Positions 26,991-36,865 of a DNA stretch of 36,865 bases are shown here, piece by piece. Numbering within the stretch: the stretch's first letter is position 1; every line of letters begins with the position of its first letter. The translations under genes were made by a program, and so were the position numbers. Location: NCBI RefSeq assembly GCF_000620065.1, contig NZ_JHVI01000030.1, positions 1 through 36,865 on the forward strand, in the 5' to 3' direction. Below the pieces are notes generated by a model. That model worked only from the letters and a program-made list of their open reading frames with translations. It was not told the origin of the DNA and made no database searches. Source of the DNA: Meiothermus cerbereus DSM 11376 (GTDB lineage Bacteria; Deinococcota; Deinococci; Deinococcales; Thermaceae).

Positions 26991-29924
26991 TCAACCACCT
27001 TTGAGCGCCCGTCTGAACATCTGCGGGGCGAACTCGGCGACCGCCCGCAAAAAGCCGGTAATGCCCCGGGCCCGGCCTGGGGTAATGTAGACCGGCACCC
27101 CCAGGTTTTCGGCTTCCAGACGCACCGGCTCGGAAAGATCGTGGCCCACATAGCTGCTGATGATCATCAGGCCGTGGGCCCGCTCGAGGCGGCTCTGGAT
27201 GCGCCGTATCACCTCCCGTCCGGCCGCGTAGGAGTCGGAGTCGAACCAGTCGAGCTCGAGGCCCTGATTTTGCAAAACAGGGGTCAGGCGGCTGCGGAGC
27301 TGGGTGTGGCCCCCCACCACGATCAGGTACTCCCCGTGGAAGCGGGGCAACCCCTCCCGCATCAGGCCCTCAGGCGTAGTGCCCGCCAGGGTATCGGGGC
27401 TACCCTCGAGGGTAGCCAGGGCCCTCGAGGTGGCCTTGAGCTCTTCCAGGTAGAGCTGCAAATCGGGGTCGGTGGGGTTTAAAAAGAGCAGGTTGCGCAG
27501 AATCTCCCGCGAAAGCTGAAGGTCTTTCTCCCAGTAATAGGCAATCTCCAGGGCCTTGCGCCAGGTTTGGGCGGCCTTCTGGTAGGCCCCGGTGCGCTCG
27601 TAGTGTTCGGCTAGGTCGTAAAGAACCTCGAGGGCCTCGGGGTTGCGGGCCAGCTCGGACAAAAGCAGCCCCTCGGCCCCCAGGGCCTGCCCCGCGTTAT
27701 AAAGCGCGGCCAGGTACTGCCCCCGCACGGTCTCGGCCTCCCGGCTCTGGGAAAAGCTGCGCGAGAGGCGGTAGGCCAGCTCGAGGTGCTCCAGGGGCGG
27801 CTCTGCAGTGCCCTCCAGGCTCTGGCTGAGCATGCGAAAGGCTTCCCAGGGGCCTTCGAGCTCTTCCACCAGCTTGAGCACCGGCTCAATCTGGCTAAAA
27901 GGCTGCAGACCCGCCTCGCGCACGCGGCCCAGAAACTCCCGCGCCAGCACCGGTTCACCGGCCTCTTTAGCTTCCAGGGCCAGCTCAAAAAGCTGGGTAA
28001 CCGGGTAGGCCCGGTGGGCGTGGGCCCGCTTGTGGTCGCCCAGCACCTCGAGCACCGGAAGGCCCAAAGCCCGCTTGGAGAGGGCCAGCAGGTGGTAGGC
28101 CAGACCGGCTGCCTCGCCCCTAGAAGCCCGTACGGCCCGCTCGAGGTAGCGCACCGCCTCGGTATGCCGCCCCTCCCGGTGGCGCAGCAGGCCCAGGGCC
28201 AAAAGCGCGGTGGCGTCCTCGGCCCGGGCCACCGCATCGGTCAGGTAGGGCTCTACCCCTTTCAAGTCGGCCAGGGGCACCTTGTCCAGCACCTCGGGGC
28301 CTCGCACCTTCAGACCTGCTAAGGCCAGTCCCAAGGCTCCATGTGCCTCCCCCAGCACATACAGGTGCTGGGCATAACGGGCCGCCCGGCCCCACAAACC
28401 CTGTTGCAAAGCGGCCTGCAAACCCAAGCGCAGCAGGCCCCGTGTCAGCAGTTCCGGCGAGAGATCCTCCACAAACTCCACACGGCGGCTGGCCTCGCTC
28501 CAGTCGCCCTCGCGGCACAAGCGCTGCACCCGCTCTTCGATGCGTTCCAAGGTGGTTTTAAGATAGATATCGGCCTCGGGCAGGCCGCATTCGTAAAGCT
28601 GGCGCAAGGCCTCCGACAGGCGCCCCAAACCCAGATACACCTTACCCAGGGCCAACTTGTACCGACCCCCACGACTCGAAAGCTCTTCCAGGCGCGGCAA
28701 GGCCCGCTGGTAGTCTTCCAGCTCGGCCCAGCACAGCACCCGCAAGTTTTCGGCTTCGGGGTGGTGGGCCAGGGCCAGCGCTGCATCGGCTTCGGCAAAG
28801 CGCGATAGGGCCAGCAAAGCCCGGCCCCGCAGGTAGGCCAGCTCGCCCGTGGTGCCCTCGGGTAGCCGTCGCAAAACCTCTGCATAAGCCCCTTCCTCGA
28901 GCAAGGCCCATATTTCCTCGCTCGAGGGCAAGGACAGCGGCTCACCTGGGTTTGGGGCATGGTCTATGGGAAGAGTCTGGGCTGGCCCTGGCTGCAGCAG
29001 GGCAACTGGCATACGGGCCGTAACCAGCGCATAATCGCCCTCCCCCACTACCTGCACCTGGTCAAACCCCAGCTGCCTTAGGGCCTGCTGGACGGCCTGC
29101 GGATTCTTGCCCAGAAAGGGCCCGTGCCCATAGGCCAGCAAGCCCCCCGGTTTGAGCAAACCCTCCAGGCCCCGCAGACGCTGCAACAGGTCGAAGCGCT
29201 GCAGGTATTCGGCCTCCTCGAGGGTCTCTGACAGGTCTCTCAGGTATCCCTCGGGCATGCAGGAAAGCAGCAGCACCACGTCCATGCTTGGCAGGCCCTG
29301 CTGGTCGGGAAACCAGCCCTGGTACCACTGCACACCCCCGCCGGTACGGGCCTGGCCCAGCTCCACGGCCTGCGCCACCCCTTCCAGGGCATGCCACTCC
29401 AGTTCGGGCCTGGCCTCGCGCAATAGCGATACCAGCGCCCCGGTAAAAGCCCCCACCTCCAGCACCCGCCCCTCCGCCGGCAGAAGCTGGGGCAGAACCC
29501 TTACATAAAACTCGATAAATGGCAGGTGCATGGCGTACACCAAAGCTTCCAGCCGTTCCCGCGGATGGCTCAGCACCGCTGAGTAAAAACTTCGCACCAC
29601 CTCCAGGTCGCCTCCCTCAGCCTCTAAATAGGCTTTCCAGGCGTCCAGGATGGGTTTTCGTCGGGCAGGGCTGCCAATGCGCTTGGCCAGCACCGCCTCA
29701 AAGCGACCTGGCGAAAGGGGGGCCGCCAGGTGAAACTGGGTACGAAAGTAGCGCTTGACCTGAGTGTCTACGGTATCCACCAACCACCTCAGCAAAGGGC
29801 TGCCGTTGGAGGGTATTGTGGCAAGTCTGGGCCTGGCTGTAAACCACCCCCCGGCTGGGGGAGCCTGTACCCCCAGCAGGTATAGCCCTGCCGGTAAGCC
29901 CTGGCAATGAACCAGCGTCTGCAT
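26991..29924 (-). CDS. Large fusion: methyltransferase domain, TPR-like repeats, DUF2325
   Basis: 977 residues. Residues about 1-100 are unassigned. About 150-305 look like a class I SAM methyltransferase: GRVLEVGAFTGALVSLL at the SAM loop, WHALEGVAQAVELG at the acidic second motif, DVVLLLSCMPEGY and LLKPGGLLAYGHG. About 335-860 are helical pairs of TPR type (for example YLRGRALLALSRFAEADAAL, ALYNAGQALGAEGLLLSELA, LYDLAEHYERTGAYQKAAQT). The last about 115 residues match DUF2325: GEYLIVVGGHTQLRSRLTPV, WFDSDSY, IISSYVGHDLSEP, GVPVYITPGRA. No signal or membrane helix. ATG 29924 lacks a clear Shine-Dalgarno, so the start is tentative; pxpBC ends 38 nt upstream. A scaffold or sensor that may methylate a partner is conceivable, but function is unknown. 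Confidence 0.75.
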   Translation of the reverse strand: MQTLVHCQGLPAGLYLLGVQAPPAGGWFTARPRLATIPSNGSPLLRWLVDTVDTQVKRYFRTQFHLAAPLSPGRFEAVLAKRIGSPARRKPILDAWKAYLEAEGGDLEVVRSFYSAVLSHPRERLEALVYAMHLPFIEFYVRVLPQLLPAEGRVLEVGAFTGALVSLLREARPELEWHALEGVAQAVELGQARTGGGVQWYQGWFPDQQGLPSMDVVLLLSCMPEGYLRDLSETLEEAEYLQRFDLLQRLRGLEGLLKPGGLLAYGHGPFLGKNPQAVQQALRQLGFDQVQVVGEGDYALVTARMPVALLQPGPAQTLPIDHAPNPGEPLSLPSSEEIWALLEEGAYAEVLRRLPEGTTGELAYLRGRALLALSRFAEADAALALAHHPEAENLRVLCWAELEDYQRALPRLEELSSRGGRYKLALGKVYLGLGRLSEALRQLYECGLPEADIYLKTTLERIEERVQRLCREGDWSEASRRVEFVEDLSPELLTRGLLRLGLQAALQQGLWGRAARYAQHLYVLGEAHGALGLALAGLKVRGPEVLDKVPLADLKGVEPYLTDAVARAEDATALLALGLLRHREGRHTEAVRYLERAVRASRGEAAGLAYHLLALSKRALGLPVLEVLGDHKRAHAHRAYPVTQLFELALEAKEAGEPVLAREFLGRVREAGLQPFSQIEPVLKLVEELEGPWEAFRMLSQSLEGTAEPPLEHLELAYRLSRSFSQSREAETVRGQYLAALYNAGQALGAEGLLLSELARNPEALEVLYDLAEHYERTGAYQKAAQTWRKALEIAYYWEKDLQLSREILRNLLFLNPTDPDLQLYLEELKATSRALATLEGSPDTLAGTTPEGLMREGLPRFHGEYLIVVGGHTQLRSRLTPVLQNQGLELDWFDSDSYAAGREVIRRIQSRLERAHGLMIISSYVGHDLSEPVRLEAENLGVPVYITPGRARGITGFLRAVAEFAPQMFRRALKGG

Positions 29925-29962: not shown

Positions 29963-31462
29963 CTACCCATCTAAAGCCGGTACAAACCGCACCGTTTGCC
30001 CCAGACGTAGCTGGGCCAGCCAGGGTAAGTCGGCGGGGTGTACCAGGGCCGGCTTGGCATAGCCCCCAAGGCGGCCCCGGTCGTTGAGCAGCACGATGGG
30101 CTGGCCCTCGGTGGTAATCTGCACCGCCCCCAGCGGGGTGGCTTCGCTAATCAGCTCACCCCCTGGCACCTCGGGCCCCACCAGCCGCAGGCCCATCCGG
30201 TCGCCCGAGGCCAGCTCGTAAGGCCCCGAACACAAAGCTCGCATCGCCTCCGGGCTGTACTGGGGCCCTGGCAGCAGGCGAACCCGCCGCTGCCCCAGGG
30301 GGGGTAGCACAAGGCCAAAGCCCACTCGAGCCCCCTTGAGCTGCGCCACCCCCAGCACATCGCCGACCTGCAAGGGCCGCCCGATCAGGCCTCTGTGGTC
30401 GGTACTGGCGCTCCCAAAGAAGCGGGCACTCTCGAGGCCCCCCGCCAGAGCCAGGTAGCCCCGCACGCCGTCGGGGGCCGAGGCAAAGTGCAGCTTATCG
30501 CCCGTGCGCAAAGCAAAGGTCTGGGCCACCTCTACCGGCGTTCCGCCCACCAACGGCCGCATCCCGTAGCCCACAAAGGCCGCCACCAGCGGCCTTAGCG
30601 CGCTCAGCACGGGGCCCTTGAGGGTCAGTTCCAAGAGCGGCGCATCGGGGAGGTTGCCCACCAGTCGGTTGGCTAAGCTGGCCAGCCGACCATCCAGCGC
30701 CCCCGAGGCCGCCAGCCCCAAACGCCCGGACAAAGGCCGCCCACCGTCCATCACCAGATCCAGCAAGCCCGCCTCCTCCACCCGCAGCGCCGGATACCGT
30801 GGTGCATCCGGCAGCAAGGGCTTTACGGGAGGCACCTCCGGGGTTGGGCCTTCGCTGGGTACAAACCGCACCCGGTCGCCGGCTTCCAACAAAAACGCTG
30901 TCTCGCGGTGGGGGTTGTAGACCTGGGTGAGCGCAGTCCCAATCAGATGCCACCCTCCCGGCGAAGGCAGGGGATAAATCCCGGTCTGGCTGCCCGCAAT
31001 CGCCACCGAGTGGGCCGGCACCAGCGCGCGTGGGGTACCCCGGCGGGGCAGCCGCAGGCGCTCGGGCAGGGGCCCCAGGAAGGGAAAGCCTGGGGTGAAG
31101 CCGGTGGCGAAGACGCGGTAGGGGGTCTGGCTGTGCAGCCGCACCACCTCATCTACCGCAAGGCCGGTTTGTTCGGCCACCCAGGGCAGGTCGGGCCCGT
31201 CGTAGCGGACGGGCAGCTCGAGCTCCTTGCCAGTTGGCGCATCGGGCAGCGCTTGCAGGTGTTGGCGTACCCAGCGTTCGACCCGCGCCCGCGAGACCCG
31301 GTCGGCGTCGTACTCGAGGTAGAGCTTCACATAACCCGGCACCACGTCGGTCACACCCGGCAGCGGCTGGGCCAGCAGGGCCCGCACCAGGGCCAGCATC
31401 TGGGCGTTGGCTTCCAGGTCGAGCTGTTCGGAGAAGGGCAGGTAGAAGCCGGCTAGAGTCAT
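29963..31462 (-). CDS. pxpBC: 5-oxoprolinase subunits B and C, fused (PxpB-PxpC)
   Basis: 499 residues. The N-terminal about 200 residues are PxpB (KipI): GYVKLYLEYD, GFTPGFPFLG, PRALVPAHSVAIAG and PSPGGWHLIG. The rest is PxpC (KipA): LLDLVMDGGR, LELTLKGP, GYLALAGGLESARFFGSAST, GDRMGLRL and EATPLGAVQITTEGQPIVLL. Together with PxpA they hydrolyse 5-oxoproline to glutamate with ATP. In most bacteria B and C are separate genes. ATG 31462 lies 8 nt after TATCCT (31471-31476, minus), so it may also have its own leaderless start; pxpA ends 43 nt upstream. Confidence 0.93.
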   Translation of the reverse strand: MTLAGFYLPFSEQLDLEANAQMLALVRALLAQPLPGVTDVVPGYVKLYLEYDADRVSRARVERWVRQHLQALPDAPTGKELELPVRYDGPDLPWVAEQTGLAVDEVVRLHSQTPYRVFATGFTPGFPFLGPLPERLRLPRRGTPRALVPAHSVAIAGSQTGIYPLPSPGGWHLIGTALTQVYNPHRETAFLLEAGDRVRFVPSEGPTPEVPPVKPLLPDAPRYPALRVEEAGLLDLVMDGGRPLSGRLGLAASGALDGRLASLANRLVGNLPDAPLLELTLKGPVLSALRPLVAAFVGYGMRPLVGGTPVEVAQTFALRTGDKLHFASAPDGVRGYLALAGGLESARFFGSASTDHRGLIGRPLQVGDVLGVAQLKGARVGFGLVLPPLGQRRVRLLPGPQYSPEAMRALCSGPYELASGDRMGLRLVGPEVPGGELISEATPLGAVQITTEGQPIVLLNDRGRLGGYAKPALVHPADLPWLAQLRLGQTVRFVPALDG

Positions 31463-32370: not shown

Positions 32371-33348
<978 letters not shown>

Positions 33349-36361: not shown

Positions 36362-36865
36362 CTAGGAAGCCAATCTTCTGACCATAAGTCGGATCATCGC
36401 CGTGTAGATAAAGGTTTCTGAGGTTTCGGGCAGGAACTCGTAGTCCCGATTGAGCCTACGATTGAAACTTAGCCAGGCAAAGGTGCGCTCCACTACCCAC
36501 CTCCTGGGGATGACCACAAAGCCACGATGCCCTCGGGTCTTCTTGAGTAGCTCCTCGGCTAAGTCATCAGGGATGGGTTTTTCATCGGGCCACCAGATAC
36601 CGCGAAAGTTGGCATCGGGTCGCTGCATGACCTGCACCGTCCAGCCTAAAGTTCGCCTGACCCACTCCTCGAACTGGCGCTTGTAGCCACCGTCAATAAA
36701 CAGATGACAGAAGTCTCTCTGGGTTGCCCAAGCCGCCTGTAGCACCACTTTCCCGCCTTCGGCATCGGTGATGTCAGCAGGCAGAACCTTGACTTTGAGC
36801 ACCAAACCCTGGGTATCCACCATCAAGTGCCTTTTGCGACCCTTGATTTTCTTGCCCCCGTCATA
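36362..36865 (-). mobile_element. IS5-family transposase, C-terminal part, runs off right edge
   Basis: The open frame continues to the right edge without a start: YDGGKKIKGRKRHLMVDTQG, LVLKVKVLPADITDAEGG, LFIDGGYKRQFEEW (second Asp of the DDE triad) and RRWVVERTFAWLSFNRRLN (the Glu) are typical of IS5-family DDE transposases of the IS427-like subgroup. The stop at 36362 is intact; no frameshift is seen in the visible part. About 168 residues are visible. It is probably a full-length recent insertion, since it is undegraded. Confidence 0.9.

Follow-up and report, generated by a model that had tools for sequence, protein, structure and literature searches.

The window, by which we mean the whole 36,865-nucleotide stretch of Meiothermus cerbereus DSM 11376 analysed here, encodes on its minus strand a protein that begins with a helical cap and continues with a SAM-dependent methyltransferase fold of class I, some 500 residues of TPR-type superhelix and, at the C-terminus, DUF2325. 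This fusion is real, and its gene is a single-copy core gene of the Thermaceae. The reading that we prefer, and to which we give slightly less than an even chance, is that of a cytosolic, Thermales-specific SAM-dependent methyltransferase, in which the TPR superhelix would hold the substrate and DUF2325 would tune the activity.

Extent and domain order of the protein

The first-pass annotation had described a 977-residue fusion of three modules. The minus-strand open reading frame at 26991-29924, as read from the window, does contain 977 codons, but this overstates the protein: its first ~48 codons are likely spurious, and the product would be ~929 aa long. This estimate is based on three observations, namely that homologues start near ORF residue 52 (43 loci, window copy included), that in close relatives in-frame TGA stops lie upstream of the conserved start, and that a GAGGTGG at 29790 precedes the GTG at 29780, an arrangement also found ahead of the homologous GTG in close relatives. 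The features of the gene are as follows.

26991-29780, minus strand: probable true CDS, opening with GTG at 29780 and coding for ~929 aa before the stop, placed from homologue starts, upstream stops and GAGGTGG
29781-29924, minus strand: probably spurious N-terminal extension, codons 1-48, not conserved and broken by stops in close relatives
29784-29790, minus strand: Shine-Dalgarno-like GAGGTGG, read from the sequence, ahead of the GTG
29484-29771, minus strand: N-terminal helical cap (ORF residues 52-147), modelled by AlphaFold2 as five helices, with invariance at 19 of its 96 positions
29007-29483, minus strand: predicted class I SAM-dependent methyltransferase domain, ORF residues 148-306, from strand order, VIA-align and the Pfam methyltransferase clan
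29439-29468, minus strand: motif I RVLEVGAFTG (predicted SAM loop), ORF residues 153-162, with E156, G158 and G162 invariant in 36 homologues
28923-29006, minus strand: variable linker, ORF residues 307-334, disordered in the AlphaFold2 model (central pLDDT ~40), 0 invariant positions
27402-28922, minus strand: alpha superhelix of TPR type spanning ORF residues 335-841, with 31 helices (about 15 repeats) in the AlphaFold2 model, from Pfam and Foldseek
26994-27350, minus strand: DUF2325 (PF10087), ORF residues 859-977, a four-strand Rossmann-like alpha/beta domain, from Pfam
27138-27158, minus strand: DUF2325 signature SSYVGHD, ORF residues 923-929, invariant in the Thermales family

Taken by itself, the window sequence is marginal. 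Against Pfam it scored 25 bits for DUF2325 (cut-off 33.6) and E = 0.05 for a methyltransferase, and its TPR scores were below the cut-offs. It is the evidence from the family of 36 homologues that settles the domain calls at the sequence level. Pfam searches on these homologues and the AlphaFold2 fold agree on the three modules within one protein and on their order, as the first reading had proposed. The family alignment served as input for the model (mean pLDDT 86, pTM 0.50); because of this pTM value, the relative placement of the domains is uncertain.

For the central region, TPR_2/TPR_16 matches were found in 33 of the 36 homologues, and the model contains tandem ~34-residue helix-turn-helix repeats, a feature of TPRs, in ~15 helix pairs. 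When the whole model was submitted to Foldseek, TPR matches dominated the list, with the TPR superhelices of OGT and SPINDLY on top. PF10087 matched the last ~115 residues in 36/36 homologues at E ≤ 0.001, and the 54 DUF2325 matches of the phylum (111 genomes) all sit inside the fusion protein, 26 genomes exceeding the curated cut-off. In the literature searched, no described protein with the order methyltransferase-TPR-DUF2325 was found, which agrees with the initial impression that none had been described.

Selective constraint was estimated from eight pairs of sequences. Most dN/dS values for the helical cap and for the methyltransferase, TPR and DUF2325 regions fell between 0.03 and 0.2, and constraint was relaxed in the linker (0.36-0.86 where measurable). 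The largest invariant fraction of all domains belonged to DUF2325 (52 of 119 positions in the 36 homologues). Given the low dN/dS and the invariant residues in the methyltransferase and DUF2325 domains, every module is probably functional.

The methyltransferase and DUF2325 domains

When the N-terminal 260 residues were scanned alone, up to 21 of the 36 homologues matched models of the Pfam methyltransferase clan, and residues 150-305 adopt a methyltransferase fold in the AlphaFold2 model, as had been claimed at the outset. The order b1-aA-b2-aB-b3-b4-aD-b5-aE-b6-b7 is complete, with a seven-strand Rossmann-like sheet and a b6-b7 hairpin. VIA-align gave Z scores of 13.9-15.2 to many SAM enzymes, including DhpI, METTL6 and BchU (model residues ~51-257); for DhpI, Z was ~15 with an rmsd of 3.0 over 182 residues. 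The family pattern of motif I is LEVG[AP][FY][TS]G, and residue 181, at the end of b2, is acidic (E/D) in 36/36 homologues. The SAM loop and the DUF2325 core had both been described as intact, and both are indeed conserved across the 36 homologues. Invariant residues were commoner in the loops of the SAM/substrate face (13/31) than elsewhere (23/128; Fisher p = 0.006), with loop boundaries that we chose ourselves from the AlphaFold2 model. Those of the substrate face include S221, P224, E225 and the YGHGPFLGK segment.

The best PDB profile match to this domain was the HemK/PrmC protein glutamine methyltransferase (6.5e-5). Membership of that family was rejected: the NPPY sequence after b4 is absent, and all homologues displayed have a LLLSxxPEG-type sequence there. 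DUF938 was rejected as well, with a single match among the 36 homologues (E = 0.005). DhpI, BchU and related small-molecule class I methyltransferases have the fold in common (Z ~15), but they are 16-18% identical to the domain and contain neither TPR nor DUF2325. Because at the profile level the domain resembles no single methyltransferase family closely (6.5e-5 for HemK), the substrate class cannot be read from the sequence.

The lack of a recognisable catalytic signature such as NPPY would be expected if the protein were a non-catalytic scaffold, in which TPR and DUF2325 assemble partners and the methyltransferase domain is either vestigial or there solely to sense SAM. It would also fit with the constraint on DUF2325 and TPR, which is at least as strong as that on the methyltransferase domain, where dN/dS reached 0.08-0.26 in several pairs, the highest values among the structured domains there. 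However, the SAM-contact positions, S221, P224-E225 and YGHGP...K273 are invariant in 36 homologues, down to ~50% identity. Since a vestigial domain would lose such SAM-contact and substrate-face residues, this version is disfavoured, and we consider the scaffold as a whole unlikely.

The DUF2325 of the fusion has an invariant signature of the type GGH...DWFDxD...SSYVGHD. It was compared with DUF2325 proteins outside the phylum, retrieved with approximate consensus-like probes, and only the real records returned were used as evidence. Alignment with nine such proteins from other phyla showed that the glycine turn after b1 and the invariant His after b3 are present, that the His of SSYVGHD is kept without exception in every DUF2325 class of the comparison, and that the GGHxxL and [YF]xxH-type motifs of other DUF2325 proteins are found in the Thermales version too. 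A profile search for a solved structure of DUF2325 found none. The isolated DUF2325 model (pLDDT 67) gave no Foldseek match at E ≤ 0.001, and with VIA-align it reached a best Z of 8.6, to generic Rossmann/CheY-like folds only.

Two other arrangements of DUF2325 emerged. Standalone proteins of ~100 aa (Cj1384 of Campylobacter jejuni, and plasmid-borne copies in Arcobacter, Nitratiruptor and Anoxybacillus) share the glycine turn after b1 and the [YF]xxH His with the fusion, but consist of a single domain, with neither methyltransferase nor TPR. A second class, found on Bacillota plasmids and in a phage, comprises apparently helical and coiled-coil proteins of ~480-540 aa which, like the fusion, carry DUF2325 at the C-terminus, most with a GGHxxL-type motif; neither the TPR nor the methyltransferase models of Pfam match their N-terminal part. 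Members of this class come from Jeotgalibacillus, Sporomusa, Aneurinibacillus, Enterococcus (on many plasmids) and C. difficile phage phiCDIF1296T. They score below the Pfam cut-off and are annotated merely as hypothetical, and the Jeotgalibacillus and phage proteins, in which the DUF2325 match is absent at E ≤ 0.01, were assigned through their GGH...H signature in the alignment.

The first-pass annotation had presented the fusion as the first contextual clue to DUF2325. This cannot be maintained in view of the long Bacillota/phage architecture and of the standalone genes: cj1384c adjoins katA and shows the strongest induction of any gene under photo-oxidative stress (PMC9426514), and another standalone gene is located near ferritin. 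The same genes would argue for a redox or stress response factor, in which DUF2325 has the main function, as suggested for Cj1384, and the methyltransferase-TPR part delivers it. Yet Cj1384 has seven cysteines (PMC9426514), whereas the C-terminal 115 residues are free of cysteine in all 36 Thermales homologues, and no oxidative-stress gene is conserved beside the fusion gene. We regard such a role as quite improbable.

Gene neighbourhood and descent

In the window, the fusion gene lies between the following neighbours.

29963-31462, minus strand: PxpB-PxpC fusion (5-oxoprolinase), upstream, above the cut-off of NCBIfam TIGR00370
26068-26910, plus strand: pyrF (orotidine-5'-phosphate decarboxylase), convergent, above the cut-off of NCBIfam TIGR02127

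Gene order was compared among genera, some neighbour names being assigned by eye. In Meiothermus the order is pxpA, pxpBC, fusion gene. In Thermus it is gdh genes, GNAT, 2-hydroxyacid dehydrogenase, a deoxyhypusine-synthase-like gene, fusion gene, mqnD, CRP regulator, bshC, and in an Oceanithermus-like genus gdh genes, GNAT, 2-hydroxyacid dehydrogenase, fusion gene, transketolase, with EF-P further on. The Thermus gene upstream of the fusion matches 1,9-bis(guanidino)-5-aza-nonane synthase; its counterpart in T. thermophilus HB8 is TTHA1570, the caldomycin synthase (PMC10981699). The gene downstream matches TTHA1568, MqnD, and TTHA1567 is a CRP-family regulator (PMC7662524). With these two flanks, we deduce by synteny that the HB8 orthologue is TTHA1569, between TTHA1570 and TTHA1568; no mention of TTHA1569 was found in the literature searched. 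The window also contains, at 32371-33348 on the minus strand, a gene of the deoxyhypusine-synthase family that scores below all NCBIfam cut-offs and groups with the caldomycin-synthase-like gene adjoining the fusion in Thermus. A transposase-like ORF (IS element, by eye; 36362-36865, minus strand) runs off the contig end.

These neighbours bear on another explanation, that the protein is a small-molecule methyltransferase of a neighbouring pathway (polyamine, menaquinone, bacillithiol or glutamate metabolism), using its TPR for oligomerisation or metabolon formation. The Thermus context of caldomycin synthase, mqnD, CRP regulator and bshC points that way, as do the nearest structures, most of which belong to small-molecule enzymes (DhpI, BchU and the Streptomyces C-methyltransferase SgMT among them). 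But the neighbours differ in Meiothermus (5-oxoprolinase) and in the Oceanithermus-like genus (transketolase, EF-P), leaving no stable pathway link, and a 500-residue TPR superhelix is unusual in such enzymes. We therefore hold this to be a minority possibility, with a low probability. As the neighbours vary among genera, context identifies neither a substrate nor a consistent pathway.

The fusion gene was detected in 49 of the 50 Thermaceae genomes, and in all 46 of good quality, as a single copy, a few copies being fragments or split by a frameshift. It also occurs in a second family, by inference Marinithermus/Oceanithermus-like, where seven genomes carry it at 50-60% identity. Seven genomes of one genus of this family are devoid of the gene, which sister genera carry. 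No full-length copy was seen elsewhere among the 111 phylum genomes, in a scan with a single-protein query, the reach of which is limited to close relatives. Identity declines with taxonomic distance, so that the sequences are consistent with vertical descent of the fusion gene. An origin from plasmids or phages was rejected: the plasmid search gave no match, and two viral-contig matches of 25 residues each were taken as chance.

Two copies are disrupted near or within DUF2325. In a finished 3.1 Mb genome of the genus Meiothermus, a one-base difference at a G run immediately ahead of this domain breaks the orthologue in two, while neighbouring species have it intact; in a single-contig Thermus-like genome, a frameshift falls in the PGRARG motif region of DUF2325, at the C-terminus. 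A programmed frameshift before DUF2325 was rejected, the one-base change being confined to one genome, where sequencing error or recent damage is likelier.

A role in anti-phage defence, for instance as a MADS-like protein, was suggested by a weak PADLOC match to mad2 (residues 148-294, E = 1.8e-4, 18.5 bits). This match is partial (147 residues) and covers the generic methyltransferase region only. Moreover, unlike patchy defence islands, the gene is a vertically distributed, single-copy core gene with housekeeping neighbours. Neither a full-length match nor defence-system neighbours were found, membership of MADS/mad2 was rejected, and a defence function appears highly improbable.

A possible mode of action

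In the Thermales-specific methyltransferase that we favour, the N-terminal class I domain would bind SAM and transfer its methyl group, as the fold and the invariant motifs suggest. By analogy with OGT and SPINDLY, whose TPR superhelix directs the catalytic domain fused to it, the superhelix of ~15 repeats may capture a client and present it to the active site. The most likely client would be a protein or a protein complex, although the TPR region could have a part in assembly instead of substrate binding. The C-terminal DUF2325 might bind a small ligand, and act as a regulatory switch or docking module. It may reasonably be inferred, as in the first reading, that the protein may be a sensor or modification enzyme assembled on TPRs.

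As in the fusion, OGT and SPINDLY combine a long TPR superhelix and a catalytic domain in one chain. Their catalytic domain, however, is a C-terminal glycosyltransferase, absent here, whereas that of the fusion is an N-terminal methyltransferase, and the analogy is one of working principle only. A bolder version, to which we grant only a small chance, would make the protein a bacterial counterpart of OGT/SPINDLY, the TPR superhelix recruiting many protein clients to the methyltransferase and DUF2325 serving as a ligand-sensing switch. If true, this would reveal a lineage-wide protein-methylation system in the Thermales, and give DUF2325 its first assigned function.

The protein is universal, single-copy, strongly constrained and unstudied in the Thermaceae, which include the model thermophile T. 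thermophilus, where the deduced TTHA1569 is flanked by characterised genes. This tractable host would allow a test of a new TPR-methyltransferase, and of a role for the widespread DUF2325.
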